Shown here one piece after another: positions 10,829 to 37,994 of a stretch of DNA of 64,000 nucleotides. Within the stretch, counting starts at the first letter, position 1; each line of letters opens with the position of its first letter. The DNA lies in assembly GCF_020149915.1 (NCBI RefSeq), contig NZ_CP083760.1, forward strand, positions 2,604,001 through 2,668,000, given 5' to 3'. The translations under genes were made by a program, and so were the position numbers. Below the pieces are notes generated by a model. The model was not told the DNA's origin. It saw only the letters and a list, made by a program, of their open reading frames with translations, and searched no databases. Source of the DNA: Candidatus Sulfidibacterium hydrothermale. Lineage in GTDB: Bacteria; Bacteroidota; Bacteroidia; Bacteroidales; F082.

Positions 10829-10842
10829 AAAATCTTTGACTT

Positions 10843-18945: not shown

Positions 18946-18963
18946 CCCCAAAAATATAAAACC

Positions 18964-19212
18964 ATGAATGTAGAAGAATTAAAAAGCATTAAAATTGACA
19001 AATCGGTAGATGCACGCGGAACATCCTGCCCCGGCCCACTGCTGGCAGCAAAAAAAGCCATCGGACAAATTGAAAAAGGTCAGGTTATGGAAGTACTTTC
19101 TGCTGACGAAGGAACCAAAAGGGACATCCCCAAATGGTGCAACAAAAAAGGATTCGAATATCTCGGAACCATTGAAGAATCAGGCTTTTACAGAATCTTG
19201 TTAAGAAAATAA
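18964..19212 (+). CDS. tusA: TusA-family sulfurtransferase
   Basis: An 82-residue protein with the TusA signature: Cys22 in DARGTSCPGPLLAAKKAI. This cysteine carries a persulfide in family members. A second cysteine, Cys59 (KWCNKKGF), lies where several TusA proteins have none. It lies 18 bases after dsrE and 1 base before the mvhD-like gene. The dsrE-tusA-hdr order is known from sulfur-oxidising bacteria and archaea, where TusA delivers sulfur to a heterodisulfide-reductase-like complex. Confidence 0.93.
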   Translation: MNVEELKSIKIDKSVDARGTSCPGPLLAAKKAIGQIEKGQVMEVLSADEGTKRDIPKWCNKKGFEYLGTIEESGFYRILLRK

Positions 19213-19213
19213 A

Positions 19214-19630
19214 ATGGATAGAGAAAAAGTATCGGCAGCTCCGAAGATTCTGGTTTTTTCCACGGAAAAAATCTCCGATCCCGCCATTGACATGGCCGGG
19301 CTGCTCAAACTTCACTATCCGCCAACAGTTTACACCATTCCCGTTCCCTGTTCAAGCGCCATCAAATCCCGTTGGATACTGCACGCCCTTGAACAGGGAT
19401 TCGACGGGGTTTTTATCGCTGCTGACGGTACCGATTGCCCTTACGGGGAAAGCTGCACGGAAAAAACCGGTGAAATCGTCCGGAAAACCATGGAACAGAT
19501 GAAAGAAAAAGGCATTGATCCTGCCCGGCTGAAAATGGCCGCCATCTGCTCGGTGTGCAGCGAACCTTTTGTAAAACACATCAAAAGCTTTTCAGCTTAC
19601 TTGTCGGAAAGTGCAAAAAAACAACCATGA
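19214..19630 (+). CDS. MvhD/FlpD-type iron-sulfur electron transfer subunit
   Basis: A 138-residue protein of the methyl-viologen-reducing hydrogenase delta subunit family: DMAGLLKLHYPPTVYTIPVP, then ALEQGFDGVFIAADGTDCPY and GIDPARLKMA. Cysteines in VPCSSA, TDCPYGESC and ICSVCSE could hold a 2Fe-2S cluster. In QmoB and in some HdrA proteins this domain is fused to the flavoprotein; here it is a separate gene. Translation is coupled to the next gene by an ATGA overlap. No hydrogenase genes are nearby, so its partner is presumably the HdrA-like proteins. Confidence 0.88.
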   Translation: MDREKVSAAPKILVFSTEKISDPAIDMAGLLKLHYPPTVYTIPVPCSSAIKSRWILHALEQGFDGVFIAADGTDCPYGESCTEKTGEIVRKTMEQMKEKGIDPARLKMAAICSVCSEPFVKHIKSFSAYLSESAKKQP

Positions 19631-20931: not shown

Positions 20932-22862
20932 AAAAGAAAATAGGTGTTTATATCTGTCACTGCGGCGGAAACATTTCCGACTATGTGGATGTGGAAAAAG
21001 TCAGAAAAGCCGTAGAAAAAGAAGAAGGTGTTTTTCTTGCCAAAACCACCATGTTTGCCTGCGCCGATTCCAACCAGAAAGAAATGGTGGAAGACATCAA
21101 AGAAAACCAGCTCGACGGCGTAGTGGTAGCTTCCTGTTCGCCCAAGCTGCATCTGCTTACTTTCCGTGCGGCAGTCGAACGTGCCGGCATGAACAAGTAC
21201 AACTACGTTCACGCCAACATCCGCGAACAGGTTTCGTGGGCCCATTCCGACAACAAAGCCGGTGCTACCGAAAAAGCGGTTAAAGTGGTAAAAGCAGCCA
21301 TTGCCAAGGTGCGTTATGCCCACTCGCTCGAACCGGTGAAGGTCGAAGCGGTGAATGCCGTGGCAGTTATCGGTGCCGGAGTAGCCGGCATGCGGGCCGC
21401 CATCGAATTTGCCGAAGCCGGCACCGACGTGTATCTTATCGAACGCGAACATTTTGTGGGCGGCCGTGTTTCACAATGGGACAACCTCTGTACTACCGAA
21501 GAAACCGGAAAAGAGCTGGTAACCCGGTTGTACGACGAAGTGATGAAACTCGATAAAGTAACTCTGTTTACCGGGGCCGAAGTCATCGAAAATTCAGGCA
21601 GTGTCGGAAATTTCACCCTGAAAGTGAAAATCACCCCCCGCTACATCAAAAAACACTGCAACAAAGGCCAGCTTCAAAAAGCCATTGAAGTATGTCCGGT
21701 GGTCGTACCCGACGAATTTAACTTCAACATCACCAACCGGAAAGCCATTTACCACAATTACCCGAGTGAATATCCGCACTTACCGGTTATCGACATAAAA
21801 AACTGTACCCGCTGCGGTGCCTGCGAAGCCGTTTGCGAAAGCATCGACTTCAGCCAGAAAGCCGAAACGCTGACGCTTCGCGTGGGTTCTATCCTGCTGG
21901 CCACCGGTTTCGACCCATACGAGCCCAAAAAAGGTGAATTCGGCTACGGCGAAATCGACAATGTGGTCACTTTTCCGCAGTTTAAACGGATTGTCCATAT
22001 CTGCGATAAAGAATTGATATACAAAGACAAAAAAATAAAAAACGTCGCTTATATTTATTGTGTCGGCAGTCGCCAGGTGGACGGTGAAAACAAATACTGC
22101 TCGCGTTACTGCTGTACTTCGGTAATTCACACGGCCAACACCGTTAAAAAGAAATACAACGAAGTTTACAATTATCATTTTACGCGAGGAATACGAACCT
22201 ACGGAAAACAGGAACTCATCTACGAAGAATCGTGTAAAAACGGCGACATTTACCTGCAGTCGTTCGAATACGATCCGCCCAAAGTGGAGAAAAAAGGCGA
22301 CAAAACCATCGTCACCATCGAAGACGTGCTTACCGGTAAAAAAGAGCTGTCGGTAGAAGCCGACCTCGTGGTTCTTGTTACCGGCATGGTGCCGCGCAAA
22401 GACAATTCCATCGGCAATCTGCTGAAGATTCCCCGCGGACGTGACAAATTTTTCAACGAAATCCACATGAAACTGCGTCCGGTGGAAACGGTAATCGACG
22501 GAGTAACCATTGCCGGAGCCAGCCAGGGCCCAAAAAATATCATGGAATCCATGAATTCGGCCCTGTCGGCAGCATCCAAGAGCTTTTCACTCATCAGTTC
22601 CGGCGAACTCGACCTGGAACCCACCATTGCCACCGTGGACACCACCCTTTGCGAATGGTGCGGAAAATGCGCGGAAGCCTGTCCTTTCGATGCTTTCGAA
22701 AAAGTGGAAATCGACGGCAAAACCGTAGCAAAAGTAAATCCTGCCGTTTGTAAAGGATGCGGTATGTGCCTGCCGGTATGTCCTTCCAATGCACTGAACC
22801 TTGTCGGATTGTCCGACGAAGAAGTGGAAAGCATGATTGATGTTTTGTTAACACACGATTAA
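20928..22862 (+). CDS. Full-size HdrA-like iron-sulfur flavoprotein (QmoB-like without MvhD domain)
   Basis: A 644-residue protein. N-terminal domain with YICHCGGNISDYVD and ASCSPKLHLLTF; FAD motif near residue 143 (VAVIGAGVAGMRAA) followed by GGRVSQWDNLC; a central cluster motif CTRCGACEAVC; late FAD motif VTIAGASQGPKNIMES; C-terminal two-cluster ferredoxin with CEWCGKCAEACP and CKGCGMCLPVCP. HdrA proteins split electron pairs at FAD and feed iron-sulfur chains. The start overlaps the previous stop (ATGA). The C-terminal MvhD domain that QmoB carries is instead the separate gene at 19214. Confidence 0.9.
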   Translation: MKKKIGVYICHCGGNISDYVDVEKVRKAVEKEEGVFLAKTTMFACADSNQKEMVEDIKENQLDGVVVASCSPKLHLLTFRAAVERAGMNKYNYVHANIREQVSWAHSDNKAGATEKAVKVVKAAIAKVRYAHSLEPVKVEAVNAVAVIGAGVAGMRAAIEFAEAGTDVYLIEREHFVGGRVSQWDNLCTTEETGKELVTRLYDEVMKLDKVTLFTGAEVIENSGSVGNFTLKVKITPRYIKKHCNKGQLQKAIEVCPVVVPDEFNFNITNRKAIYHNYPSEYPHLPVIDIKNCTRCGACEAVCESIDFSQKAETLTLRVGSILLATGFDPYEPKKGEFGYGEIDNVVTFPQFKRIVHICDKELIYKDKKIKNVAYIYCVGSRQVDGENKYCSRYCCTSVIHTANTVKKKYNEVYNYHFTRGIRTYGKQELIYEESCKNGDIYLQSFEYDPPKVEKKGDKTIVTIEDVLTGKKELSVEADLVVLVTGMVPRKDNSIGNLLKIPRGRDKFFNEIHMKLRPVETVIDGVTIAGASQGPKNIMESMNSALSAASKSFSLISSGELDLEPTIATVDTTLCEWCGKCAEACPFDAFEKVEIDGKTVAKVNPAVCKGCGMCLPVCPSNALNLVGLSDEEVESMIDVLLTHD

Positions 22863-22873
22863 AAATTGACATC

Positions 22874-23158
22874 ATGGAAATTATCAAGGGAAAAACCATC
22901 AAATACATCAAAGAAAAGCGCACGGTACCCCAAAGCGTTAAAGAAAACCTGAAATATTTCAACCAGATGAAAAAAGCGCTGTTGAATGCTTTGCGCGAAA
23001 GTCCAAAAACAGTGCCCCAGCTGGCGGAAGTTCTTCAAAAGCCGACAGACGAAGTCTTGTTTTACCTGATGAGTTTATTGAAATACGGCTTTGTGGAAGC
23101 CGGTGAACCGGATGATAACGAAGAATATTTTTATTATAAAATAAAAGACAATGGCTAA
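22874..23158 (+). CDS. Small winged-helix-like protein in the hdr operon
   Basis: A 94-residue basic protein. Residues 32-75 (LLNALRESPKTVPQLAEVL, then VLFYLMSLLKYGFVEAG) look like a winged helix-turn-helix of the kind found in ArsR/MarR-type proteins. There are no cysteines. It begins 11 bases after the full hdrA gene and overlaps the qmoC-like gene by eight bases, so it is tightly embedded. It may be a structural or assembly subunit that uses the fold for protein contact, or a regulator; the sequence does not decide. Confidence 0.7.
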   Translation: MEIIKGKTIKYIKEKRTVPQSVKENLKYFNQMKKALLNALRESPKTVPQLAEVLQKPTDEVLFYLMSLLKYGFVEAGEPDDNEEYFYYKIKDNG

Positions 23159-24278
23159 GATAGATCCGACATTCGCCAAAGAACTGCAAAAATACGGAAC
23201 GGCAGATTTTCAGGCATGCTACAGTTGCGGTAACTGTACAGCCGTCTGCAACCTGACGGATGAAAACGCCAATTTCCCGAGGATGTACATTCGTTACGGC
23301 ATGCTCGGATTAAAAGATGAAATACTCGACAGCAAAGACCTGTGGATGTGCTACGCCTGTGGCGACTGCACCGCCCACTGTCCGCGCGAGGCCATCCCCG
23401 GTGACTATATGGCCACCCTGCGACGCTATGCCATCGCCCATTACGAGCCTACCGGCATTACCCGGCTGATTTTTAAAAACAATCCCTGGTACATTGCAAT
23501 CATTATTTTGCTGGCCGTAATTTTGGGCTTTTTCCTGCTCACACTCAAACCCGATATGACCATCTCGCGCTGGATATTCCAGTACATGCCTTTCGAAATC
23601 ATTCACAACACCGGTGAAGTGGTTTTTGCCCTGACCGGACTGTTTATGCTTATCGGTTTCTGGAATATGTTCCGGCATCTGTCCCGAAACTACCGGCACG
23701 AAAAAAAGGAAAAACCCAAATCGTCGCCACTTGCTTCTTTAAAATATGTCATCAACGAGCTGACTACCATGAAACGTTACCAGACCTGCGACAGCGAAGA
23801 AGACGGCTTTTGGTATAAAAAACCGGCCGTTGTCCGCCCCTGGTTTATTCACTGGTCTATCATGTGGGGTTTCATCGGATTGCTGTTAGCCACCATTCTC
23901 GACTTTTTACTGAAAAATCCGGCTACTACCGTCTGGTGGCCGTCACGCATTCTCGGAACCGTTTCCGGATTGTTTATGATGTACGGCGCAACCATGGCAT
24001 TGTACTACCGTTTTAGCAAAATTACCGATGCTTACGCCCATTCCAAACTGGCCGACTGGGTTTTCCTGTGGTCGTTGTGGATAACAGGCTTTACCGGATT
24101 CTGGATGGAAACCGCTGTTTTTCTCGGCGGAAATGACATGCTCGACCAAATCATTTTTATCATCCACACCATTATGGCTATGGAGCTGGTTTTGTTATTT
24201 GCTTTTTCAAAATTTGCCCATGCCTTATATCGGCCGGTGGCACTGTACATGTATCACCGTATGGCCCTGACAAATTAG
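23151..24278 (+). CDS. QmoC-like subunit: HdrC ferredoxin domain fused to HdrE-type cytochrome b
   Basis: A 375-residue protein. Residues 20-100 carry two 4Fe-4S motifs, CYSCGNCTAVC and CYACGDCTAHCP, as in HdrC. The remainder has about six membrane segments with possible haem-b histidines (RPWFIHWSIMWG, YAHSKLADW, IFIIHTIMAME). This HdrC-HdrE fusion is the build of QmoC, which links soluble Hdr-type flavoproteins to menaquinone. It is the last gene of the operon and is followed by a terminator at 24315. Without aprAB in the window, the partner redox reaction is unknown. Confidence 0.88.
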   Translation: MAKIDPTFAKELQKYGTADFQACYSCGNCTAVCNLTDENANFPRMYIRYGMLGLKDEILDSKDLWMCYACGDCTAHCPREAIPGDYMATLRRYAIAHYEPTGITRLIFKNNPWYIAIIILLAVILGFFLLTLKPDMTISRWIFQYMPFEIIHNTGEVVFALTGLFMLIGFWNMFRHLSRNYRHEKKEKPKSSPLASLKYVINELTTMKRYQTCDSEEDGFWYKKPAVVRPWFIHWSIMWGFIGLLLATILDFLLKNPATTVWWPSRILGTVSGLFMMYGATMALYYRFSKITDAYAHSKLADWVFLWSLWITGFTGFWMETAVFLGGNDMLDQIIFIIHTIMAMELVLLFAFSKFAHALYRPVALYMYHRMALTN

Positions 24279-24784: not shown

Positions 24785-27046
24785 ATGAAAACAAGACGTC
24801 AATTTATCAAAATCACAACAGCAGGTGCCGGCGCTGCAGCTCTCGGATTACATTCCATAAAAGTAAAAGGGCTCAGTCTGTTTGATTCTGCCGAACAGGA
24901 ACCGGTCAGCGATGAAAACATGACCGCTACGCCTACCTATTGCGAGGTTTGTTTCTGGAAATGTGCCGGCTGGACTTATGTGGACAAAAAAGGCCGGGTC
25001 AGAAAAGTTATCGGGAACAAAGAAGATCCGCACTGTAACGGACGACTTTGCCCGAGAGGCACCGGCGGTGTCGGAATGTACAACGATGAAGACCGGTTAA
25101 AAACACCACTCATTCGCGAAATTGACAAAAACGGATACCAGTATTTCCGTAAAGCCAGCTGGAAAGAAGCACTGGACCTGGTGGCATCAAAAATGGACAA
25201 GTTGCGGATGGAACACGGTCCTGAATGCTTGGCTCTGTTTAGCCACGGCACCGGCGGAAAACTTTTTTCCCACCTGGTAAAAGCATACGGCACACCGAAC
25301 ATTACCGCCCCGTCCTTTGCCCAGTGTCGCGGACCACGCGAAGTGGGTTTTACCGCTACTTATGGCGAAGGAGTCCTTTCACCGGAAAGAACGGATATCC
25401 GTGATACCAAATGTCTGGTTCTGATTGGCTCGCACATCGGAGAAAACATGCACAACGGGCAAATACAGGAAATGTCGCAGGCACTTGATAATGGCGCTAC
25501 CATTATTACTGTTGACCCGCGGTTTTCCACGGCAGCATCTCACTCCAAATATTGGCTCCCCATTAAACCGGCTACCGATATAGCCCTGTTGCTGGCCTGG
25601 ATGAATGTGATTATTGAAGAAGAATTATATGATAAAGCGTATGTAAAAAAATACACCTACGGCTTTGACGATCTTAAAAAACATGTGGCCGACAAAACTC
25701 CCGAATGGGCTTATGGCATTACTACCATTGAGCCGGAAGTAATCCGTCGTACAGCAAGAGAAATGGCGGCTGCCGCACCTTCGGTAATTGTCCACCCGGG
25801 ACGCCATGTAACCTGGTACGGAGATGATACCCAACGCTCCCGGGCTATTGCTATTTTGAATGCCCTGCTGGGATCGTGGGGACGAAGAGGCGGATTTTAC
25901 AATCCTGAAAAAGTGCATCTGCCCAATTATCCTCACCCGCCCTATCCCAAACCCAAACGGTCGTGGCGCGATGCTTTCCCGAAAAACAAATACAAACTGG
26001 TTACCGAAGTACTTTCCACCGGGATTTGCGATGCTACCATTCCGAATCCCGATTTAGACTGCCACTTGCGCGGATGGATCGTTTACGGAACCAACCTGAT
26101 GGCTTCGTTACCCGACCAGAAAAAAACGCTGGAAGCTATTCATCACCTGGATTTTCTGGTGGTCATTGACACCATGCCCATGGATATTACAGGATATGCC
26201 GATGTGGTACTTCCCGAATGTACTTATCTGGAACGCTACGATCCGCTGAGAACATCGCCCCATCGCGAGCCTTATCTTGCTTTGCGCATGCCGGCAGTAA
26301 AACCGAAATATGACACCAAACCCGGCTGGTGGATCGCCAAACAACTGGCTCACCGTCTCGGACTGGATGACTATTTTAAATGGAATAATATCGAAGAACT
26401 CCTTGACTGGCAGCTCAAAAAAGTAGGATCATCCCTTGAAGAGATGAAACGTGTCGGGGTAAAGAAATTCCCGCGTGAGTATCAGGATTTATATAATCTG
26501 CAGGATTTACCGGATTACGAATTCAACACCAATACCGGAAAAATTGAATTGTATGCCACCGAGCTGGCTGCCGAAGGCTTTGATCCGTTCCCCAACTACA
26601 CTCATCATCCGGAACCGCCACAAGGCTACTACCGGTTAAACTACGGCCGTGCCCCCATGCATACTTTTAGCCGTACGATCAACAACCACAATCTTTGGGA
26701 CTTAAAAAAGGAAAACAAAGTTTGGGTAAATCCAAAAGTAGCTGATCTGTGGGAATTAAAAGACGGACAGGAAGTTTGGTTAAAAAATCAGGACGGAATT
26801 ATCTCATCATTTCCTGTTAAAGTAAGAGTTACTGAACGTATCCGGTGGGATTCGGTTTATCTGGTCCATGGTTTTGGACAAACCGATAAAAAACTGACCC
26901 GTGCTTTTGGCCGTGGAGCCAGTGACTCTGAGCTGGTATCCAAAATTTACGAAGATCCCATTATGGGAGGTACCGGCATGAGAAGCAATTTTGTTACTTT
27001 TTTAAAAGAAAATCCCAGAAAAAACAGAGAGGAGGTTAAAGCATGA
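24785..27046 (+). CDS. psrA: Polysulfide/thiosulfate reductase-type molybdopterin oxidoreductase, catalytic subunit
   Basis: A 753-residue protein of the DMSO-reductase superfamily. It has a Tat signal peptide (KTRRQFIK, residues 3-10), a 4Fe-4S motif (CEVCFWKC, then RLCPRG) and a putative molybdenum ligand Cys181 in SFAQCRGPREVGF. The domain order (bis-MGD cofactor, C-terminal molydopterin-dinucleotide binding) and the psrB and psrC genes that follow place it with PsrA/PhsA/TtrA enzymes. It acts in the periplasm. Polysulfide, thiosulfate and tetrathionate are all possible substrates; the sulfur genes downstream favour a sulfur compound. The stop overlaps the psrB start by four bases. Confidence 0.9.
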   Translation: MKTRRQFIKITTAGAGAAALGLHSIKVKGLSLFDSAEQEPVSDENMTATPTYCEVCFWKCAGWTYVDKKGRVRKVIGNKEDPHCNGRLCPRGTGGVGMYNDEDRLKTPLIREIDKNGYQYFRKASWKEALDLVASKMDKLRMEHGPECLALFSHGTGGKLFSHLVKAYGTPNITAPSFAQCRGPREVGFTATYGEGVLSPERTDIRDTKCLVLIGSHIGENMHNGQIQEMSQALDNGATIITVDPRFSTAASHSKYWLPIKPATDIALLLAWMNVIIEEELYDKAYVKKYTYGFDDLKKHVADKTPEWAYGITTIEPEVIRRTAREMAAAAPSVIVHPGRHVTWYGDDTQRSRAIAILNALLGSWGRRGGFYNPEKVHLPNYPHPPYPKPKRSWRDAFPKNKYKLVTEVLSTGICDATIPNPDLDCHLRGWIVYGTNLMASLPDQKKTLEAIHHLDFLVVIDTMPMDITGYADVVLPECTYLERYDPLRTSPHREPYLALRMPAVKPKYDTKPGWWIAKQLAHRLGLDDYFKWNNIEELLDWQLKKVGSSLEEMKRVGVKKFPREYQDLYNLQDLPDYEFNTNTGKIELYATELAAEGFDPFPNYTHHPEPPQGYYRLNYGRAPMHTFSRTINNHNLWDLKKENKVWVNPKVADLWELKDGQEVWLKNQDGIISSFPVKVRVTERIRWDSVYLVHGFGQTDKKLTRAFGRGASDSELVSKIYEDPIMGGTGMRSNFVTFLKENPRKNREEVKA

Positions 27047-27576
27047 GATACGCCATGGCCATTGACACTAAAAAATGTGTCGGCTGCAGCGACTGCGTTG
27101 TTGCCTGCCAAACAGAAAATAATGTTCCTCACGGTTATTGCCGCGACTGGATTGTGGAAAGTGTAAGCGGAACTTATCCCGTTGTAGAACTGGAGTTTCG
27201 CTCAGAGCGCTGTAATCACTGCGACAATGCACCCTGTGTAAGATGTTGCCCGACAGGGGCAAGCCACATCGCCGAAGGCGGAATTGTACTGGTTACACAC
27301 GATGAGTGCATCGGATGTGGCGCTTGTATTGAATCTTGTCCTTACGAAGCCCGTTATCCGCATCCGGACGGTTACGTGGATAAATGTACTTTTTGTATTC
27401 ACCGGGTAGAAAAAGGGCAAAACCCTGCCTGTGTGGATGTTTGCCCTACTCATTGCCTGCATTTTGGCGATCTGGACGATCCCAACAGCGATGTTTCCGT
27501 TGCCATGCGCGACCGCAAATGGAAAGTTCTGGCTCCTGAAGCCGGTACCAAACCACAATTGTATTTTCTTATGTAA
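27043..27576 (+). CDS. psrB: Four-cluster ferredoxin subunit of the Psr-type reductase
   Basis: A 177-residue protein with four 4Fe-4S motifs: CVGCSDCVVAC, CNHCDNAPCVRCCP, CIGCGACIESCP and CTFCIHRVEKGQNPACVDVCP. This is the build of PsrB/PhsB/DmsB/NrfC subunits, which pass electrons from the membrane quinol site to the catalytic subunit. It has no signal peptide and probably travels with PsrA through the Tat system. It begins ATGA-overlapped with psrA and is followed by psrC 20 bases later. Confidence 0.93.
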   Translation: MRYAMAIDTKKCVGCSDCVVACQTENNVPHGYCRDWIVESVSGTYPVVELEFRSERCNHCDNAPCVRCCPTGASHIAEGGIVLVTHDECIGCGACIESCPYEARYPHPDGYVDKCTFCIHRVEKGQNPACVDVCPTHCLHFGDLDDPNSDVSVAMRDRKWKVLAPEAGTKPQLYFLM

Positions 27577-27596: not shown

Positions 27597-28538
27597 ATGA
27601 AAGAAGAATTATTTGCCAGCGGACGTCATATTCCACATATCGATCCTTACCTGAACATCTGGCACTGGCCCATTGCCCTTTATCTGTTTTTAGGCGGACT
27701 GGCAGCCGGAATCCTATTTTTTGCAGGCTATTTTGTGGTAAAAGGAAAAGAAAAAGAGATGCCCGCCACGGTAAAATGGGCAACCATTATCGCCCCCCTG
27801 GCACTCGTCATCGGATTATCCGCTCTCTTTTACGATTTGCACCACAAACTCTACTTCTGGCGGCTTTACACCACCATCCGGCTTTCATCGCCCATGTCAT
27901 GGGGAGCCTGGACCCTCATGGTCATTACCCCGTTATCTTTTGTCTGGGTAGCCAGTTACATGAAAGAGATGTTTCCCAAGTGGGACTGGAAACTGGAAAT
28001 TCTCAACAAATTCGAAAGATGGGTTATCAAAAACCGGGTTCCTTTTGCCTGGATTATGATGATCCTGTCCATTATTCTCGGGGTTTACACCGGAATTTTA
28101 CTTTCCGCTTTTAATGCAAGGCCGTTGTGGAACACTTCCATTCTGGGTCCGTTGTTTCTCACTTCTGGACTTTCAACCGGACTGGCTGCCATTATGTGGA
28201 TTTCCAAAAGTGAACAGGAAAGAAAAGTCATCAGCCGGATTGACCTGATCCTCATCCTGGTCGAACTTTTCTTAATCATCCACCTTTTTATGGGATTTTT
28301 AGCCGGAACAGCCGTAAAACAGGAAGCAGCTGCGCTGTTTCTCGGTGGAGAGTTTACCGTTACTTTCTGGGTATTTGTCGTCATTCTCGGACTGGCTTTC
28401 CCCGCCACGCTCGAAGCGCTGGAATTGCGCGGTTATCATGTTCCGAAATGGCTTCCTCCTTTTCTCATTCTGTTTGGCGGACTGGCTTTCCGTTTTATTA
28501 TGGTGGAAGCCGGACAAATTACACGATTTTTATACTAA
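27597..28538 (+). CDS. psrC: NrfD/PsrC-type quinol-binding membrane subunit
   Basis: A 313-residue integral membrane protein with about eight hydrophobic segments and the NrfD family pattern (HWPIALYLFLGGLAAGILFF near the start, SSPMSWGAWTLMV, LSAFNARPLWNTSILGPLFL). It has no haem. It oxidises menaquinol, or reduces menaquinone, for the PsrA-PsrB unit. It sits in the psrABC order with short spacers and is followed by sulfur transporter genes. Confidence 0.93.
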   Translation: MKEELFASGRHIPHIDPYLNIWHWPIALYLFLGGLAAGILFFAGYFVVKGKEKEMPATVKWATIIAPLALVIGLSALFYDLHHKLYFWRLYTTIRLSSPMSWGAWTLMVITPLSFVWVASYMKEMFPKWDWKLEILNKFERWVIKNRVPFAWIMMILSIILGVYTGILLSAFNARPLWNTSILGPLFLTSGLSTGLAAIMWISKSEQERKVISRIDLILILVELFLIIHLFMGFLAGTAVKQEAAALFLGGEFTVTFWVFVVILGLAFPATLEALELRGYHVPKWLPPFLILFGGLAFRFIMVEAGQITRFLY

Positions 28539-28561: not shown

Positions 28562-29089
28562 ATGGATACAAATCATAACAGACCCCATTACATCAATCCT
28601 TATCTCGGCGGAGTATTGCTGGGATTATTGGTCCTGTTAACGGTGTATATTACCGGACGCGGGCTGGGTGCCAGCGGAGCAGTAAAAAGCACAGTGGTCA
28701 CCACCGCCAAGATAATTACCCCGGCCAAAGCCGAGCACAATGCCTACATGAAAAAATTCATCAGTCCGGATCATTCTCCCATGTACAATTGGCTGATTTT
28801 TGAATCACTCGGGATTTTCTTCGGCGGACTTCTTTCCGGGATTCTTTTCGGAAGGGTTAAAAAATTCAGGATTGAAAAAAGCCCGAAAATCACGAACAAA
28901 ACCCGGTTATTAGCCGCTTTAGCCGGTGGAATTCTCTTCGGTATCGGCAGCCAGTTCGGACGTGGATGTACCAGCGGGGCCGCGCTGAGCGGAAGTGCTA
29001 CTTTTGCTTTTGGCGGTGTACTGGTTATGCTTGCCATCTTCGGTACCGGTTACATTCTAGCCTGGTTTTTCAGAAAATTATGGATTTAA
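28562..29089 (+). CDS. YeeE/YedE-type sulfur transporter half, first
   Basis: A 175-residue membrane protein with about four hydrophobic segments. The family signature GRGCTSGAALSG holds its only cysteine. YeeE of Spirochaeta thermophila imports thiosulfate through a line of cysteines. Here the transporter is split into two consecutive genes of about half size, each with one cysteine, as in PmpA/PmpB-type pairs. A long extracytoplasmic stretch (residues 35-70) precedes the second membrane segment. Its place between psrC and rhodanese genes suggests transport of a sulfur compound. Confidence 0.88.
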   Translation: MDTNHNRPHYINPYLGGVLLGLLVLLTVYITGRGLGASGAVKSTVVTTAKIITPAKAEHNAYMKKFISPDHSPMYNWLIFESLGIFFGGLLSGILFGRVKKFRIEKSPKITNKTRLLAALAGGILFGIGSQFGRGCTSGAALSGSATFAFGGVLVMLAIFGTGYILAWFFRKLWI

Positions 29090-29109: not shown

Positions 29110-29712
29110 ATGGGACCATTAATACCTAACGGAATCATCAACGGGGACTGGAGTTTTGTTATAGCATTACTCATCGGTATCGCTTTTGGATTTCTCCTTG
29201 AAGCATCCGGTTTTTCCTCTTCACGCAATATCACCGGCGTTTTTTACGGTTACAATTTTGTTGTACTACGCGTCTTTTTTACTGCTGTAATTGTTGCCAT
29301 GGTCGGACTGCTTTATTTCGATTATTTCGGATGGCTTGACCTGAGCAAGATTTTTATCCTGCCCACGTTTCTGAAGCCTATGTTGCTGGGCGGAGTTATC
29401 ATGGGACTGGGATTCATCATCGGCGGTTTCTGCCCGGGAACCAGTTACACAGCTATCGCTATCGGTAAACTGGACGGTTTATTTTTTGCTATCGGCCTTT
29501 TCATCGGAATTTACATTTTCGCCCTGGCTTTCCCGCTGTTCAAAGATTTTTATTACAGCGACAACATGGGACATGTCACGCTGACCGATGTAACCGGCAT
29601 TCCGGCGCCCTGGTTTGCTGCCGGGTTTACCGTAATTGCTCTCGCGGCTTTCTGGATTACCATGGTCATTGAAAAACGCGTCAGGAAAAATTTTACAGAA
29701 TATAAATTTTAA
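29110..29712 (+). CDS. YeeE/YedE-type sulfur transporter half, second
   Basis: A 200-residue membrane protein with about five hydrophobic segments. The signature GGFCPGTSYTAIAIGKLDG holds its only cysteine. It lies 20 bases after the first half and probably pairs with it to make one channel. The conserved SSSRNITGVFYG segment near residue 40 is also typical of this family. The cargo (thiosulfate, sulfite or a persulfide-bound sulfur) cannot be deduced from the sequence. Confidence 0.88.
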   Translation: MGPLIPNGIINGDWSFVIALLIGIAFGFLLEASGFSSSRNITGVFYGYNFVVLRVFFTAVIVAMVGLLYFDYFGWLDLSKIFILPTFLKPMLLGGVIMGLGFIIGGFCPGTSYTAIAIGKLDGLFFAIGLFIGIYIFALAFPLFKDFYYSDNMGHVTLTDVTGIPAPWFAAGFTVIALAAFWITMVIEKRVRKNFTEYKF

Positions 29713-29716
29713 CATT

Positions 29717-30343
29717 ATGAACCGAAATTATATTTTCCTTACCCTGCTTATGCTGGCACTGGCATTGGGCACACTTTTTATAAAAAAGGAGCCTGCACTG
29801 CCTGAAACGCCGCCCGAGACATTATTACCCGAGACATTATTATGGGAAATCATACAGCCTACCCGGTACGTTTCAACGGATCAGGTGGCCAAAATGATCA
29901 TCCAGAAAGATCCGTCATTAGAGATCGTGGATGTTCGCTCACCCAAAGCTTTTTCCCGGTTTACCCTGCCTGGTGCTGTAAACGTGCCACCCGACAGTCT
30001 GCTCTCTCCTTCCGGTTCTGATTATTTTGGAATCCCGGGAATAAAAGTCGTTTTTATTTCGGACGACGGAATTTTGGCTGACCAGATGTGGGTTTTAGCA
30101 AAAAGATTGGGATATAAAGACTTATATGTTATGAAAGGTGGGCTTAACCGTTGGATGGAAACCATTATCCAACCTAAAGAACCCGGTGAAGGTGAACCTT
30201 ATACCGCCTTTGAGAAATATGAATTCCGCCAAGGCGCCCGGCTCTATTTTACCGGCGCCAAAGTAAAAACGACCAAAGCCACAAAAACCAAAGTTGTTGT
30301 ACGGCGAAAAAAGAAAGCTACCGTCGCTTCCGGCGGATGTTAA
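29717..30343 (+). CDS. Membrane-anchored rhodanese-like protein with C-terminal cysteine tail, first
   Basis: A 208-residue protein starting at ATG 29717, four bases after the transporter stop. Residues 4-22 are a membrane anchor; the rest probably faces the periplasm. A rhodanese fold follows (LEIVDVRSPKAFSRFTLPGAVNVP and YVMKGGLNRW), but the catalytic-loop cysteine is replaced (VVFISDDGILAD). The only cysteine in the protein is the final residue, in the tail RRKKKATVASGGC. The next gene ends in the same 13 residues. It may be a sulfur carrier with a swinging tail, comparable in idea to SoxY or DsrC, rather than a classical sulfurtransferase. Confidence 0.85.
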   Translation: MNRNYIFLTLLMLALALGTLFIKKEPALPETPPETLLPETLLWEIIQPTRYVSTDQVAKMIIQKDPSLEIVDVRSPKAFSRFTLPGAVNVPPDSLLSPSGSDYFGIPGIKVVFISDDGILADQMWVLAKRLGYKDLYVMKGGLNRWMETIIQPKEPGEGEPYTAFEKYEFRQGARLYFTGAKVKTTKATKTKVVVRRKKKATVASGGC

Positions 30344-30367
30344 TCGTTTTATCAAAAAGTAAAAACC

Positions 30368-31006
30368 ATGCACGAACACGAACATAATCCCAAAAAGACC
30401 CTGATCACCGTCATCATTTTTGTGCTCATTATTATTGTCGGATTTCTGACGCTGCACAAACCCCGTTTCCGGTACCAACTTACCATTAACGAGACGGTAA
30501 AAATGTTAAAAGATAAAAACAATGCTTTTTATCCTTATCAGCTTACCGATGTCATCGACCAGGTAAATACCAAAGTCGTTCTGATCGATATCCGCAATAA
30601 GTTTGCTTTTAGCCGCGGACATATCCCTGGAGCTGAAAATATTTCGGCATACGACCTAACCCAAAAGAAAAACATCAAACACCTGGAAGCATTGGCAGAT
30701 AAAGGAATTACTGTTGTCCTTTACGGTAATGATCAACTACAGGCCAATGGCCCGTGGATGTGGTTCAGGATGACCGGCTTTAACAACGTAAAATACCTTC
30801 TTGGAGGATATAATTACTATCAGAAACATAAAAACAACCTGGCACAAACGCAAAAAGACAAAAGCTATCTTACCGGCATTCCACGGTATGACTATGCTAA
30901 GCTTGCCAGCAGTCCGGCACAAACAACTGTTTCAAAAACGAAAGTGAAAAAACCGGTAATCATCCGCAGAAAGAAAAAAGCTACCGTGGCTTCCGGTGGA
31001 TGCTAA
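30368..31006 (+). CDS. Membrane-anchored rhodanese-like protein with C-terminal cysteine tail, second
   Basis: A 212-residue protein. After a His-rich start (MHEHEHNPKK) a membrane anchor spans residues 11-28. The rhodanese fold is recognisable (VVLIDIRNKFAFSRGHIPGAENI and VKYLLGGYNYY), but the catalytic cysteine is replaced (VVLYGNDQLQAN). A flexible Lys/Ser/Thr-rich segment leads to the tail RRKKKATVASGGC, whose last residue is the only cysteine. It is the last gene of the psr operon. Its final 185 bases are the left edge of the 2,391-bp tandem repeat, so two extra tail fragments follow downstream. Confidence 0.85.
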   Translation: MHEHEHNPKKTLITVIIFVLIIIVGFLTLHKPRFRYQLTINETVKMLKDKNNAFYPYQLTDVIDQVNTKVVLIDIRNKFAFSRGHIPGAENISAYDLTQKKNIKHLEALADKGITVVLYGNDQLQANGPWMWFRMTGFNNVKYLLGGYNYYQKHKNNLAQTQKDKSYLTGIPRYDYAKLASSPAQTTVSKTKVKKPVIIRRKKKATVASGGC

Positions 31007-31028
31007 TTTAAAGGACAAAAATCTTTTT

Positions 31029-31061
31029 AAAAAGCTGTTTCTGAAAGGGACAGCTTTTTTT
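31029..31061 (+). terminator. Terminator of the psr-rhodanese operon
   Basis: The inverted repeat AAAAAGCTGT with ACAGCTTTTT, an 11-base loop and a T-run, 22 bases after the stop. It recurs at +2,391 and +4,782 within the tandem copies. Confidence 0.8.
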
Positions 31062-31130
31062 ATACCGATTGAAAATCAAAATGCGCTTTTGGTTCATTTC
31101 AATCCCAAAAGCGCTTTGATTTAGTATCGG
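31062..31130. repeat. Dispersed hairpin element, copy A
   Basis: It begins ATACCGATTG and contains a perfect 10-bp stem GCGCTTTTGG with CCAAAAGCGC around the loop TTCATTTCAATC. It also lies at 33453 and 35844 through the tandem duplication. A related copy, keeping even most of the loop, is at 40501-40556, and a diverged one at 42642-42696. Confidence 0.75.
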
Positions 31131-31144
31131 CATTTACAATGGTA

Positions 31145-33212
31145 TTATTTGAAAAAAACCCGGGTTATTCCTGCCCCTCCCAATTCCACCGGAGCATCCC
31201 CAAAACGTTCAATTTCTTTCACCGACTGCAAATATTCGCGGATAATCTCCCGCAGAATACCATAACCTTTTCCATGTAAGATACTTACTTCTTTTATACC
31301 GAGTAGCAGGGCATCATCGATATAACGGGTCAAAAGCGCCATAGCCTCATCAGCCCGTTTGCCACGCAGATCAAGCGTCAGTTCAAAGTGAGCGGCTTTT
31401 TGATTGATCTCACGCATTACACCCGAATGACTGACTTTTGGTGATTTTGTTACCGGCTTTTTATCTGTTCTCTGCAATTTGTCCCGGGCAATCTTCAGAC
31501 GGATATTATTGACATTGACATAACAGTCTTTACCTTCAACGGAAACCACTTCGCCTACAGTATTGCTGTCTTTTACCAAAACAAAATCGCCCGGACGCAA
31601 AGGTCTATCCGGTAAAATTTCCACTTTTTCCGGCTGCTCTTTCCTGTTTTTCGATTTACGGGAATTCTCTTTTTTATACTTTGTTTTGGGTGAAGCTGTT
31701 AATGATTTCTCTAATTGACTTTTATGTTTTTCGAGTTGCTTACGCAATTTTTGTGTGGTTTCCTTTTCAGCCTGTACTTCCCTGATTTGCCGGATGGTAT
31801 TTTCGATCATACGGTTCGACTGCCGGACAATTTCCAATGCTTCTTCTTTTGCCTGCTGAAGAATCTGTTTTTTTTCTTTTTCGAGTTGTTCGGTCAAATG
31901 CCGGTATTTTTCAATCTGTTGCGAAAGTGTGACATCGGCTTCAGCAAGTTCTTTTTCTTTTTGCGAAAGATTAATTTTATCCGCTTCAAGTTGTTGAAGC
32001 TGGGTATCAAAACGCAAGTGCTTTCCGCCACTTTTTTTGCGGGCACGATTCAGCACATCCTGCGGAAATCCTATTTTCCGTGCTATCTCAAAGGCAAAAG
32101 AGCTGCCCGGCTTCCCCGTTTTCAACCGATACAACGGTTTTAAAGCTTCCACATCAAAAAGCATGGCTCCGTTTTGTGCGCCATCAAGCCGGTCGGCAGC
32201 CAATTTCAGGCTGGTGTAATGCGTTGTGAGCACACCAAAAGTCTGTTTATGCACCAACTGCTCCAAAACGGCTTCAGCAATAGCAGATCCCAGTTGCGGT
32301 TCGGTACCCGTACCAAATTCGTCAATTAAAACCAGGCTCCGGCTGTTGGCATGCTGTAAAAAATATTTCATGTTCAGCAGATGCGAGCTGTAAGTACTCA
32401 GGTCATTCTCCAGCGACTGTTCGTCTCCTATGTCTATGAAAATATTTTCAAAAACAGGAAACTTACTGTCAGGCGAAACCGGAACCGGCAACCCACATTG
32501 CAACATGTATTGTAATAATCCCACCGTCATCAAACAAACCGATTTCCCCCCTGCATTGGGTCCGGAAATCAACAACAAGCGATTTTCTTTGGTAAGTTCC
32601 ATATCAAGAGGTACCACTGTTTTTCCCGAATCTTTATGAGCAAGAAACAGCAAAGGATGAACTGCTTTTTTCAGATAAAGATGACGTTCATGAGTCAACA
32701 TGGGCAAAGAAGCCTCGATTTTTTTCGAGAACAATGCCTTGGCACGAATAAAATCAAAAAGTCCCAACACCCGGTATGACTTTATCAGCGAATCGATATA
32801 CGGCCGCAGCCGGTCGCTGAAACGGGTCAGTATGGCAATGATCTCCCGGCGTTCTTCACTTTCAAGTTCCAGAATCTCGTTAGAGACTTCGAAGCTGTTT
32901 AACGGCTCAATAAAAACCGTTTGTCCGGTGGCCGACTCATCAATAATAATTCCTTTCAATGCCCTTTTATCCGCCGCTTTAACAGGAATCACCGCCCGTC
33001 CGTTGCGCAGCGTGATTTCGGCATTTTCGGGAAGCCATCCCGACTTCTTTGCCTGTGAAAAAGCCTTGCGTACTTCCTGCATCACCTGCCGTTGCTTGCG
33101 TGACAGTTTCACCCGGATAGCAGCCAGTTTTTCAGAAGCAGTATCTTTTATTTCCCCCTTGTCATCAATAATACGGCCGGCATGCAGCAAAATTTCCCCG
33201 GGAACAGTAATC
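31145..33212 (-). pseudogene. mutS2: mutS2 fragment 1, 5' end missing
   Basis: Identical to the 3' part of the intact mutS2 at 35927-38371 but lacking about the first 125 codons. It keeps the MutS core, the Walker A motif GPNAGGKS and the Smr domain. An in-frame extension to 33313 runs through antisense rhodanese sequence, so a chimeric 722-residue reading frame exists, but no native promoter or start is present. It is probably not expressed as a working protein. Confidence 0.85.
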
Positions 33213-33397
33213 AGAAACATAAAAACAACCTGGCACAAACGCAAAAAGACAAAAGCTATCTTACCGGCATTCCACGGTATGACTATGCTAAGCTTGCCAG
33301 CAGTCCGGCACAAACAACTGTTTCAAAAACGAAAGTGAAAAAACCGGTAATCATCCGCAGAAAGAAAAAAGCTACCGTGGCTTCCGGTGGATGCTAA
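33213..33397 (+). pseudogene. 3' fragment of the second rhodanese gene, copy in unit 2
   Basis: It encodes the last 61 residues of the protein at 30368-31006, including the RRKKKATVASGGC tail. The membrane anchor and rhodanese fold are missing. A chance in-frame ATG at 33182 in mutS2 antisense DNA makes a 71-residue frame, without export signal. Confidence 0.85.
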
Positions 33398-33535
33398 TTT
33401 AAAGGACAAAAATCTTTTTAAAAAGCTGTTTCTGAAAGGGACAGCTTTTTTTATACCGATTGAAAATCAAAATGCGCTTTTGGTTCATTTCAATCCCAAA
33501 AGCGCTTTGATTTAGTATCGGCATTTACAATGGTA

Positions 33536-35603
33536 TTATTTGAAAAAAACCCGGGTTATTCCTGCCCCTCCCAATTCCACCGGAGCATCCCCAAAACGTT
33601 CAATTTCTTTCACCGACTGCAAATATTCGCGGATAATCTCCCGCAGAATACCATAACCTTTTCCATGTAAGATACTTACTTCTTTTATACCGAGTAGCAG
33701 GGCATCATCGATATAACGGGTCAAAAGCGCCATAGCCTCATCAGCCCGTTTGCCACGCAGATCAAGCGTCAGTTCAAAGTGAGCGGCTTTTTGATTGATC
33801 TCACGCATTACACCCGAATGACTGACTTTTGGTGATTTTGTTACCGGCTTTTTATCTGTTCTCTGCAATTTGTCCCGGGCAATCTTCAGACGGATATTAT
33901 TGACATTGACATAACAGTCTTTACCTTCAACGGAAACCACTTCGCCTACAGTATTGCTGTCTTTTACCAAAACAAAATCGCCCGGACGCAAAGGTCTATC
34001 CGGTAAAATTTCCACTTTTTCCGGCTGCTCTTTCCTGTTTTTCGATTTACGGGAATTCTCTTTTTTATACTTTGTTTTGGGTGAAGCTGTTAATGATTTC
34101 TCTAATTGACTTTTATGTTTTTCGAGTTGCTTACGCAATTTTTGTGTGGTTTCCTTTTCAGCCTGTACTTCCCTGATTTGCCGGATGGTATTTTCGATCA
34201 TACGGTTCGACTGCCGGACAATTTCCAATGCTTCTTCTTTTGCCTGCTGAAGAATCTGTTTTTTTTCTTTTTCGAGTTGTTCGGTCAAATGCCGGTATTT
34301 TTCAATCTGTTGCGAAAGTGTGACATCGGCTTCAGCAAGTTCTTTTTCTTTTTGCGAAAGATTAATTTTATCCGCTTCAAGTTGTTGAAGCTGGGTATCA
34401 AAACGCAAGTGCTTTCCGCCACTTTTTTTGCGGGCACGATTCAGCACATCCTGCGGAAATCCTATTTTCCGTGCTATCTCAAAGGCAAAAGAGCTGCCCG
34501 GCTTCCCCGTTTTCAACCGATACAACGGTTTTAAAGCTTCCACATCAAAAAGCATGGCTCCGTTTTGTGCGCCATCAAGCCGGTCGGCAGCCAATTTCAG
34601 GCTGGTGTAATGCGTTGTGAGCACACCAAAAGTCTGTTTATGCACCAACTGCTCCAAAACGGCTTCAGCAATAGCAGATCCCAGTTGCGGTTCGGTACCC
34701 GTACCAAATTCGTCAATTAAAACCAGGCTCCGGCTGTTGGCATGCTGTAAAAAATATTTCATGTTCAGCAGATGCGAGCTGTAAGTACTCAGGTCATTCT
34801 CCAGCGACTGTTCGTCTCCTATGTCTATGAAAATATTTTCAAAAACAGGAAACTTACTGTCAGGCGAAACCGGAACCGGCAACCCACATTGCAACATGTA
34901 TTGTAATAATCCCACCGTCATCAAACAAACCGATTTCCCCCCTGCATTGGGTCCGGAAATCAACAACAAGCGATTTTCTTTGGTAAGTTCCATATCAAGA
35001 GGTACCACTGTTTTTCCCGAATCTTTATGAGCAAGAAACAGCAAAGGATGAACTGCTTTTTTCAGATAAAGATGACGTTCATGAGTCAACATGGGCAAAG
35101 AAGCCTCGATTTTTTTCGAGAACAATGCCTTGGCACGAATAAAATCAAAAAGTCCCAACACCCGGTATGACTTTATCAGCGAATCGATATACGGCCGCAG
35201 CCGGTCGCTGAAACGGGTCAGTATGGCAATGATCTCCCGGCGTTCTTCACTTTCAAGTTCCAGAATCTCGTTAGAGACTTCGAAGCTGTTTAACGGCTCA
35301 ATAAAAACCGTTTGTCCGGTGGCCGACTCATCAATAATAATTCCTTTCAATGCCCTTTTATCCGCCGCTTTAACAGGAATCACCGCCCGTCCGTTGCGCA
35401 GCGTGATTTCGGCATTTTCGGGAAGCCATCCCGACTTCTTTGCCTGTGAAAAAGCCTTGCGTACTTCCTGCATCACCTGCCGTTGCTTGCGTGACAGTTT
35501 CACCCGGATAGCAGCCAGTTTTTCAGAAGCAGTATCTTTTATTTCCCCCTTGTCATCAATAATACGGCCGGCATGCAGCAAAATTTCCCCGGGAACAGTA
35601 ATC
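33536..35603 (-). pseudogene. mutS2: mutS2 fragment 2, 5' end missing
   Basis: The second truncated copy, identical in translation to fragment 1, also lacking about the first 125 codons and fused in frame to antisense rhodanese sequence up to 35704. Confidence 0.85.
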
Positions 35604-35788
35604 AGAAACATAAAAACAACCTGGCACAAACGCAAAAAGACAAAAGCTATCTTACCGGCATTCCACGGTATGACTATGCTAAGCTTGCCAGCAGTCCGGC
35701 ACAAACAACTGTTTCAAAAACGAAAGTGAAAAAACCGGTAATCATCCGCAGAAAGAAAAAAGCTACCGTGGCTTCCGGTGGATGCTAA
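35604..35788 (+). pseudogene. 3' fragment of the second rhodanese gene, copy in unit 3
   Basis: The same 61-codon tail fragment as at 33213-33397, left by the tandem duplication. It has no anchor, no fold and no native start. Confidence 0.85.
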
Positions 35789-37994
35789 TTTAAAGGACAA
35801 AAATCTTTTTAAAAAGCTGTTTCTGAAAGGGACAGCTTTTTTTATACCGATTGAAAATCAAAATGCGCTTTTGGTTCATTTCAATCCCAAAAGCGCTTTG
35901 ATTTAGTATCGGCATTTACAATGGTATTATTTGAAAAAAACCCGGGTTATTCCTGCCCCTCCCAATTCCACCGGAGCATCCCCAAAACGTTCAATTTCTT
36001 TCACCGACTGCAAATATTCGCGGATAATCTCCCGCAGAATACCATAACCTTTTCCATGTAAGATACTTACTTCTTTTATACCGAGTAGCAGGGCATCATC
36101 GATATAACGGGTCAAAAGCGCCATAGCCTCATCAGCCCGTTTGCCACGCAGATCAAGCGTCAGTTCAAAGTGAGCGGCTTTTTGATTGATCTCACGCATT
36201 ACACCCGAATGACTGACTTTTGGTGATTTTGTTACCGGCTTTTTATCTGTTCTCTGCAATTTGTCCCGGGCAATCTTCAGACGGATATTATTGACATTGA
36301 CATAACAGTCTTTACCTTCAACGGAAACCACTTCGCCTACAGTATTGCTGTCTTTTACCAAAACAAAATCGCCCGGACGCAAAGGTCTATCCGGTAAAAT
36401 TTCCACTTTTTCCGGCTGCTCTTTCCTGTTTTTCGATTTACGGGAATTCTCTTTTTTATACTTTGTTTTGGGTGAAGCTGTTAATGATTTCTCTAATTGA
36501 CTTTTATGTTTTTCGAGTTGCTTACGCAATTTTTGTGTGGTTTCCTTTTCAGCCTGTACTTCCCTGATTTGCCGGATGGTATTTTCGATCATACGGTTCG
36601 ACTGCCGGACAATTTCCAATGCTTCTTCTTTTGCCTGCTGAAGAATCTGTTTTTTTTCTTTTTCGAGTTGTTCGGTCAAATGCCGGTATTTTTCAATCTG
36701 TTGCGAAAGTGTGACATCGGCTTCAGCAAGTTCTTTTTCTTTTTGCGAAAGATTAATTTTATCCGCTTCAAGTTGTTGAAGCTGGGTATCAAAACGCAAG
36801 TGCTTTCCGCCACTTTTTTTGCGGGCACGATTCAGCACATCCTGCGGAAATCCTATTTTCCGTGCTATCTCAAAGGCAAAAGAGCTGCCCGGCTTCCCCG
36901 TTTTCAACCGATACAACGGTTTTAAAGCTTCCACATCAAAAAGCATGGCTCCGTTTTGTGCGCCATCAAGCCGGTCGGCAGCCAATTTCAGGCTGGTGTA
37001 ATGCGTTGTGAGCACACCAAAAGTCTGTTTATGCACCAACTGCTCCAAAACGGCTTCAGCAATAGCAGATCCCAGTTGCGGTTCGGTACCCGTACCAAAT
37101 TCGTCAATTAAAACCAGGCTCCGGCTGTTGGCATGCTGTAAAAAATATTTCATGTTCAGCAGATGCGAGCTGTAAGTACTCAGGTCATTCTCCAGCGACT
37201 GTTCGTCTCCTATGTCTATGAAAATATTTTCAAAAACAGGAAACTTACTGTCAGGCGAAACCGGAACCGGCAACCCACATTGCAACATGTATTGTAATAA
37301 TCCCACCGTCATCAAACAAACCGATTTCCCCCCTGCATTGGGTCCGGAAATCAACAACAAGCGATTTTCTTTGGTAAGTTCCATATCAAGAGGTACCACT
37401 GTTTTTCCCGAATCTTTATGAGCAAGAAACAGCAAAGGATGAACTGCTTTTTTCAGATAAAGATGACGTTCATGAGTCAACATGGGCAAAGAAGCCTCGA
37501 TTTTTTTCGAGAACAATGCCTTGGCACGAATAAAATCAAAAAGTCCCAACACCCGGTATGACTTTATCAGCGAATCGATATACGGCCGCAGCCGGTCGCT
37601 GAAACGGGTCAGTATGGCAATGATCTCCCGGCGTTCTTCACTTTCAAGTTCCAGAATCTCGTTAGAGACTTCGAAGCTGTTTAACGGCTCAATAAAAACC
37701 GTTTGTCCGGTGGCCGACTCATCAATAATAATTCCTTTCAATGCCCTTTTATCCGCCGCTTTAACAGGAATCACCGCCCGTCCGTTGCGCAGCGTGATTT
37801 CGGCATTTTCGGGAAGCCATCCCGACTTCTTTGCCTGTGAAAAAGCCTTGCGTACTTCCTGCATCACCTGCCGTTGCTTGCGTGACAGTTTCACCCGGAT
37901 AGCAGCCAGTTTTTCAGAAGCAGTATCTTTTATTTCCCCCTTGTCATCAATAATACGGCCGGCATGCAGCAAAATTTCCCCGGGAACAGTAATC
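35604..37994. repeat. Tandem repeat unit 3 (2,391 bp)
   Basis: The third copy. Its right edge continues into the native 5' part of mutS2, so this copy contains most of the intact gene. Confidence 0.93.

Follow-up and report, generated by a model that had tools for sequence, protein, structure and literature searches.

The window analyzed here, a stretch of 64,000 nucleotides (positions 2,604,001 to 2,668,000 of NZ_CP083760.1) from the 3.27 Mb genome of Candidatus Sulfidibacterium hydrothermale, which consists of a single contig, contains an operon encoding, in this order, PsrA, PsrB, PsrC (NrfD), the half transporters YeeE1 and YeeE2, and two rhodanese-like proteins, R1 and R2, with intergenic gaps of at most 25 bp (Table 1). 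The N-terminus of PsrA resembles a Tat signal, scoring 20.1 bits against PF10518, under the cut-off of 22.7. PsrA matches 2vpw, deposited as a thiosulfate reductase and presumably the Thermus polysulfide reductase, over nearly its whole length (E 3.4e-192); its best NCBIfam family is PhsA, at 462 bits and thus under the cut-off of 694, so that its substrate may be polysulfide or thiosulfate.

Table 1. Features of the operon and of the adjoining repeat, in window coordinates.
Feature	Position	Strand	Remarks
PsrA-type molybdopterin subunit	24785..27046	+	closest solved structure 2vpw
PsrB-type 4Fe-4S ferredoxin subunit	27043..27576	+	
PsrC / NrfD-type membrane subunit	27597..28538	+	
YeeE1, PmpA-like half transporter (C-terminal half of YeeE)	28562..29089	+	PF04143; Cys136
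YeeE2, PmpB-like half transporter (N-terminal half of YeeE)	29110..29712	+	PF04143; Cys108
R1	29717..30343	+	N-terminal helix (probable anchor), rhodanese-fold domain, Ser115 at loop, 28-residue unstructured tail ending in GGC
R1 tail RRKKKATVASGGC	30302..30340	+	13 residues
R2	30368..31006	+	R1 paralog, rhodanese-fold; hydrophobic N-terminal stretch; Gly120 at loop; tail as in R1
R2 tail RRKKKATVASGGC	30965..31003	+	13 residues
Orphan copy of R2 C-terminus with tail	33203..33397	+	part of triplication; probably not functional
Second orphan copy of R2 C-terminus with tail	35594..35788	+	part of triplication

Upstream of the psr operon, window positions 9164-12375 encode an octaheme cytochrome that scores 512 bits against the tetrathionate reductase family (cut-off 375) and, after it, a PAS-domain cytochrome b; the same upstream region encodes a flavoprotein nearest to CoA-disulfide reductases and HdrA2-like proteins, both below their family cut-offs. 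Also upstream of psrA (window 18526-24278) lie a small DsrE-like frame, HdrA2-like proteins and a ferredoxin/membrane protein that we labelled HdrC; the DsrE-like label is likewise our own, the frame having no NCBIfam match. These genes are possibly the cytoplasmic end of a sulfur route.

R1 (208 aa) and R2 (212 aa) are both recognized as rhodaneses by Pfam (PF00581; 56.1 and 60.7 bits, cut-off 22.2). As an earlier note on this DNA had pointed out in proposing that they carry sulfur, each contains a single cysteine, located at the very end of a 13-residue tail (RRKKKATVASGGC) that is identical in the two proteins and encoded by codons differing at 7 of the 13 positions. The bodies are as diverged as the note had stated, with 31% identity over the best-aligned 155 residues, tail included, and about 19% in a family alignment without the last 45 residues. 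The AlphaFold2 model of R1, based on 56 sequences, agrees with the N-terminal anchor proposed earlier by predicting a helix at residues 3-19, followed by a linker, a confident core that Foldseek matches to solved rhodaneses, and a helix at residues 162-179; the tail (residues 181-208) has a pLDDT of 55-59 and no structure. A profile of 29 R1 proteins matches 1qxn, deposited as a sulfide dehydrogenase and which we take to be Wolinella Sud, with an E-value of 1.2e-05, and profile alignment to solved rhodaneses places Ser (R1) or Gly (R2) opposite the catalytic cysteine, the absence of which had been read from the loop sequence.

Among 74 R1 proteins, that of the window included, 65 have Ser at the loop site, four Gly, two Ala and three Cys, and no cysteine occupies this site in any of 70 R2 proteins. 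That the proteins contain no other cysteine is true of the window pair but does not extend to their relatives, 39 of the 74 R1s having a cysteine at position 145, outside the loop. The R1 copies of four loci (L134, L150, L155 and L265) combine a cysteine at the loop position with the tail cysteine, and are natural test cases for a kept or regained active site. Those of L134, L150 and L155 stand in the same operon as in the window, so that a loop cysteine in homologs apart from psr and yeeE genes, which the earlier note had named as contrary to its proposal, is not what was encountered.

Pattern searches for GGC followed by a stop codon across the window genome returned 12 matches with TAA or TAG and 12 with TGA. 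Four of these 24 correspond to R1, R2 and two duplicated R2 ends, and the remaining 20 to frames of 4-91 aa unlike R1 or R2, ruling out the tail as a general feature of many proteins in this genome. The duplicated ends belong to a perfect tandem triplication (window 30819-37991) with a 2391-bp unit covering the R2 3' end and the greater part of a gene that, judging by its sequence, we take to be MutS2-like, resulting in two MutS2-like frames of 722 aa with a truncated N-terminus and one of 822 aa. As the three units are identical, the triplication is either very recent or an assembly artefact.

A search of 60 genomes, including that of the window, identified R1 in 40 (weakest E 1.2e-17) and R2, at E ≤0.001, in a slightly different set of 40, one of them reached only at 8.5e-4 (G037). 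YeeE1 (E <1e-40) was detected in 39 genomes, every one among the 40 with R1, which favors a sulfur-carrying role in concert with YeeE; in the sole R1 genome without YeeE1, R1 sits at a contig end (G010). A scan of a species-level genome collection with two short peptide patterns derived from a 20-sequence R1 alignment, which reaches close relatives only, yielded 73 loci; several of these are close relatives of one another or contigs shared with the 60-genome search, and the counts are therefore not independent. The nearest named records to the window genome are Bacteroidales MAGs, Draconibacterium and Maribellus, and the titles of the 73 records name Bacteroidetes/Bacteroidota groups or Chlorobi/Chlorobiota, apart from those of two near-identical 7027-bp contigs titled Neomarinimicrobiota BH26 (L137 and L141), which carry the operon and are possibly mis-binned.

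The psr and yeeE neighborhood to which the earlier note had drawn attention recurs as psrABC-yeeE1-yeeE2-R1-R2, with constant order and strand, in nearly every one of the 73 loci (R1 in 73, R2 in 69, YeeE1 in 71, YeeE2 in 70, PsrC in 71, PsrB in 70 and PsrA in 64), and one locus presents an extra divergent PsrA/PsrB pair (L176). For all but one (L129) of the nine loci devoid of PsrA, the available sequence starts within 3 kb upstream of R1, and L142 and L161 start at R1 itself. R2 was not found in L117, which ends inside R1, nor in L175, L176 or L177. Since an R2-type frame of L177 came up with a more sensitive profile, the R2 count is a lower bound. Of the 142 R1 and R2 frames in these loci, all but one include a stop codon, and 140 of those 141 terminate in GGC or, for L170, in GGCE, placing a cysteine at the last or next-to-last position. 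Failure of the tail to persist in homologs, the other observation that the note had regarded as adverse, was thus not borne out, and chance or composition is ruled out as the source of the tail cysteine. Basic residues, which the earlier note had supposed might dock to a partner, are abundant in the last 20 positions, with a mean of 6.4 Lys/Arg in 72 R1 tails and 6.5 in 68 R2 tails, and a minimum of three. The only exception among the 141 frames is the R2 of L149, and two other loci (L193 and L188) also harbor R2-type paralogs without the tail; examination of the frames downstream of these three paralogs for the lost tail found none, and the R1 beside each retains it. The existence of such paralogs speaks against a carrier role for the tail.

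In a class-wide draw, the R1 profile matched 358 of 395 genomes at E ≤0.001, nearly all through ordinary rhodaneses, and six genomes (the window genome and five others) fell below 1e-60, the next best being 8e-15. In a phylum-wide draw, 41 of 296 genomes fell below 1e-18. The family is hence widespread yet patchy in the phylum. From these 41 genomes we compiled 40 regions of 38 genomes, the window genome and G449 being already covered and G501 left out. An octaheme cytochrome is encoded in 19 of the regions, PsrA in 18, neither in three (L241, which is cut by a short contig, L278 and L280) and both in none.

The arrangement with the octaheme cytochrome constitutes a second operon type, which in four loci (L178-L181) reads octaheme cytochrome, a double rhodanese with intact loop cysteines (R3), YeeE1, a YeeE2::R1 fusion of 412-433 aa and an R2-like protein, with R3, the fusion and the R2-like protein each ending in GGC. 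All 19 octaheme regions of the phylum sample encode YeeE1 and a YeeE2::R1 fusion ending in GGC, GGCG or GGCT, split in two frames in L274. In the 18 Psr regions, R1 ends in GGC (2), EGC (15) or DGC (1), and that of L258 is itself a fusion; the remaining three end in GGC (L241), FQC (L278) and MGC (L280). The glycine pair is therefore not universal in the phylum (REGC, RDGC, RMGC and RFQC ends), which weighs against the carrier reading. It weighs in its favor that in the 22 fusions that could be aligned, out of 23 listed (the start of the L275 fusion was not found), neither the GGC nor the YeeE2 cysteine varies, although the rhodanese half has few invariant positions. Over the additional loci (L178-L197 and L241-L280), the last or next-to-last residue is a cysteine in 72 of 79 frames matching the R1 profile, the other seven being the R2-type paralogs of L193 and L188 and five other rhodaneses. 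Given that the arm persists where the octaheme cytochrome replaces PsrABC, and that R1 is then fused to YeeE2, the constant partner of the arm is YeeE rather than Psr.

Both half transporters present an invariant cysteine, Cys136 in YeeE1 (72 of 72) and Cys108 in YeeE2 (71 of 71). YeeE1 Cys136 aligns, in a weak match (E 0.034) with residue 293 counted by hand, with C293 of StYeeE, which has been described as the first cysteine of the sulfur path (PMC11073785), and this correspondence favors sulfur exchange with the tail. YeeE2 had no match among solved structures; by eye, from motif spacing and a weak match to a TsuA model, Cys108 falls in the C91 motif of StYeeE and Ser36 at the position of C22, which is reported to lie at the cytoplasmic interface with YeeD (PMC11073785). 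The serine at this position argues against the carrier reading, as do the short gaps of the window operon, which leave no room for a YeeD gene between its genes, and the doubt voiced elsewhere, on account of the distances involved, about direct cysteine-to-cysteine transfer inside YeeE (PMC11582611). The model of the fusion is confident for the rhodanese half but poor for the membrane half (mean pLDDT 64.7), and the 50 Foldseek matches listed contained rhodanese-type or other soluble entries and no YeeE; the topology hence rests on helix counting and on charges assessed by eye. About five predicted helices precede the R1 anchor, and the C-terminus of YeeE2 is basic (EKRVRKN). From these features, and from the cytoplasmic location of StYeeE C22, we infer that the rhodanese domain probably lies outside the cytoplasm.

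We lean towards the reading that R1 and R2 are extracytoplasmic, membrane-tethered swinging-arm sulfur carriers that exchange sulfur with YeeE1 and YeeE2. A rhodanese domain without its catalytic cysteine would serve as scaffold for a flexible, basic tail of about 28 residues, the tip of which, a single cysteine behind two glycines, would take up sulfane sulfur or thiosulfate on the outer side of the cytoplasmic membrane, the site at which PsrABC or the octaheme cytochrome would reduce polysulfide, tetrathionate or thiosulfate. The sulfur might be supplied on the reductase side or taken straight from polysulfide, thiosulfate or tetrathionate. The tip would then exchange it with the cysteine path of the split transporter, entering at the outer cysteine, YeeE1 Cys136, and the R1 and R2 tails would stay alike because the same dock must accept both. 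With YeeE constant and the reductase variable, the most likely dock is the outer side of YeeE1/YeeE2. This reading is also favored by the constancy of the tail cysteine and of the gene order around R1, by the predicted lack of structure in the arm next to a confident core, and by the matched variation of R1 and R2 tails within genomes, which has no counterpart in their codons.

It is also conceivable, if unlikely, that the arms act as Sud does, feeding polysulfide sulfur to the PsrA active site, and that YeeE is a mere neighbor. The presence of psrABC upstream in the same operon, the extensive match of PsrA to 2vpw and that of the R1 profile to 1qxn are all in agreement with this possibility, but the octaheme operon type dispenses with PsrABC while preserving YeeE1, YeeE2 and the tail, and in it R1 is fused to YeeE2. 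We attach a rather low probability to a redox tether or gate, in which the tail cysteines would form disulfides with each other or with the YeeE cysteines, holding or gating the complex and carrying no sulfur. Matched R1 and R2 tails would suit a symmetric disulfide, and YeeE1 and YeeE2 each offer one invariant cysteine; the tail persists, however, in operons where R1 alone was found (L183-L187 and many of L241-L280), and tailed rhodaneses with intact loop cysteines are better suited to sulfur handling.

The likeness of the two tails might alternatively have arisen by gene conversion between neighboring genes, with no functional need. To assess their co-variation, we used the 69 of 70 R1-R2 pairs, window included, in which both proteins have the tail, and retained 45 with R1 identity below 80%. 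Over the 11 residues preceding GGC, R1 and R2 of the same genome are 75.6% identical, as opposed to a mean of 45.8% and a maximum of 54.9% over 10,000 permutations of the partners, whereas the bodies do not co-vary (19.1% identity within genomes and 18.6% across). Compared with the tail of the nearest relative, within-genome likeness is higher in 29 of the 45 genomes, tied in 7 and lower in 9, a weaker effect that tells against the carrier reading. The adjacency of R1 and R2 and the duplication of the R2 end in the window would be compatible with conversion, as would the observation that, across genomes, the tails of paralogs are about as alike as those of orthologs at equal divergence. Nevertheless, the two genes use the same codon at 227 of 497 shared tail positions, where codon usage alone would give 219.2 (z 0.76; only pairs with at least 300 codons of usage data entered this test), and this chance-level identity indicates that the likeness is held at the protein level, as the earlier note had concluded from the 7 differing codons of the window tails. 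Together, these data rule out recent DNA duplication or recent gene conversion of the tail; an older conversion followed by codon saturation is conceivable but would still require the protein sequence to be held, and conversion without function is very improbable. Thiocarboxylate chemistry of the ThiS/MoaD/QbsE type, with a protease stripping the cysteine and the bared GG being activated, is suggested by the GGC end and can be dismissed as highly implausible, given that the cysteine is constant while the glycines vary, that the R1 domain has a rhodanese fold according to Foldseek and that the protein is predicted to lie outside the cytoplasm.

The same arm occurs on other rhodaneses. Among 28 R3-family frames counted over L105-L197 and L241-L284, some of them the same gene more than once, the tail is present in 10 of the 11 that are encoded within 600 bp of R1, R2 or a fusion on the same strand, and in none of the 17 others. 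A smaller count over 30 loci, leaving out the 136-aa, single-domain protein of L227, found the tail in six of 29, all adjoining yeeE1, R1 or R2 on the same strand, and in none of the other 23. The one neighboring R3 that lacks the tail, in L190 (190-1218), is separated by 7 bp from a tailed R2 of the same strand, and its existence weighs against a carrier role; tail-less R3s also include two L189 copies at about 0.9 kb or more from a tailed R2 and copies 7-9 kb upstream in the same gene run. The dependence of the R3 tail on its neighborhood is thus strong, not strict. Where present, R3 tails resemble the R1 and R2 tails of their own locus (KEEEGGC in L173 and L174, poly-Gly-Cys in L182).

L281-L284 encode R4, a short single-domain rhodanese that has a loop cysteine and ends in GGC. 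Its gene has cytochrome genes on one side and that of a tail-less R3 on the other, adjoins an octaheme cytochrome and cytochrome b pair in L281 and L284, and is separated from R3 by a regulator gene in L282. Of the further double rhodanese encoded in L281-L284, only the L282 version ends in GGC. In the window genome, the search for relatives of R3 and R4 found none except R1 itself. A loose lipobox pattern is present in five of six tailed R3 and four of six R4 proteins; these lipobox-like N-termini would place the R3 and R4 arms outside the cytoplasm, in keeping with the carrier reading. Between the double rhodaneses of L281 (8925-10046) and, by eye, L282 (7562-8716) lies a gene for a Porin_O_P-type outer-membrane protein, possibly an outer-membrane entry for sulfur oxyanions.

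More tentatively, and with somewhat greater doubt than assurance, the tailed proteins may together form a Bacteroidota extracytoplasmic sulfur-relay module, in which one GGC arm, mounted on several rhodanese types (two dead anchored rhodaneses, the YeeE fusion and active exported rhodaneses), would hand sulfane sulfur along a chain of arms and on into a YeeE channel lined with cysteines, as a rhodanese-built counterpart of SoxYZ for sulfur reduction, not oxidation. Such a module would help explain the handling of polysulfide and tetrathionate by these Bacteroidota, and would illustrate how a swinging arm can be built on an enzyme fold that has lost its catalytic residue.

Comparison with known systems sets R1 and R2 apart from each of them. 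They have the rhodanese fold of PF00581 and lack its catalytic loop cysteine. Sud, the partner of polysulfide reductase, binds polysulfide sulfur through a single cysteine in its rhodanese loop; R1 and R2 share its fold and by gene position are associated with Psr, except in the octaheme operon type, whereas the window proteins have no loop cysteine and their sole cysteine is on the tail. DsrC also has a flexible C-terminal arm with a cysteine near its end, but is a cytoplasmic protein with another fold and another tail motif. Carriers of the ThiS/MoaD/QbsE type have a ubiquitin-like fold and an essential GG that forms a thiocarboxylate, unlike R1 and R2, with their rhodanese fold and a tail in which the cysteine, not the GG, is conserved across the phylum. 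YeeE1 (175 aa) and YeeE2 (200 aa) are half-size PF04143 proteins with one conserved cysteine each and as such correspond to PmpA and PmpB, described as YeeE halves of about 130 aa with one conserved cysteine each (PMC11582611); with these, YeeE (TsuA) and SoxT are the closest known transporters. YeeE1 and YeeE2 are longer than PmpA/PmpB, and differ in being accompanied by, or fused to, a cysteine-tailed rhodanese.

The closest functional parallel would be SoxY, which has a fold of its own, unlike that of rhodanese. R1 and R2 resemble it in their C-terminal Gly-Gly-Cys arm, and differ in having a rhodanese fold, an N-terminal helix and the cysteine as last or next-to-last residue, and in standing with Psr or an octaheme cytochrome and YeeE. 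In the periplasmic SoxYZ, the sulfur substrate is bound by the cysteine of the SoxY GGCGG motif (PMC6067878, PMC11582611). The sulfur of SoxYZ is said to reach the cytoplasm by unknown means, SoxT1A having been shown to be needed and a carrier-to-channel hand-over being weighed in the discussion of that work (PMC11582611); here carrier and transporter are encoded together, sometimes in one polypeptide, so that such a hand-over becomes directly testable. Searches of the open-licence literature listed no earlier description of a cysteine-tailed dead rhodanese. The recurrence of such arms in related bacteria, next to a sulfur reductase and a YeeE-type transporter, suggests a mode of extracytoplasmic sulfur carriage that had not been described. 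If the proposed model is right, R1 and R2 would work like SoxY, and yet they are not SoxY.
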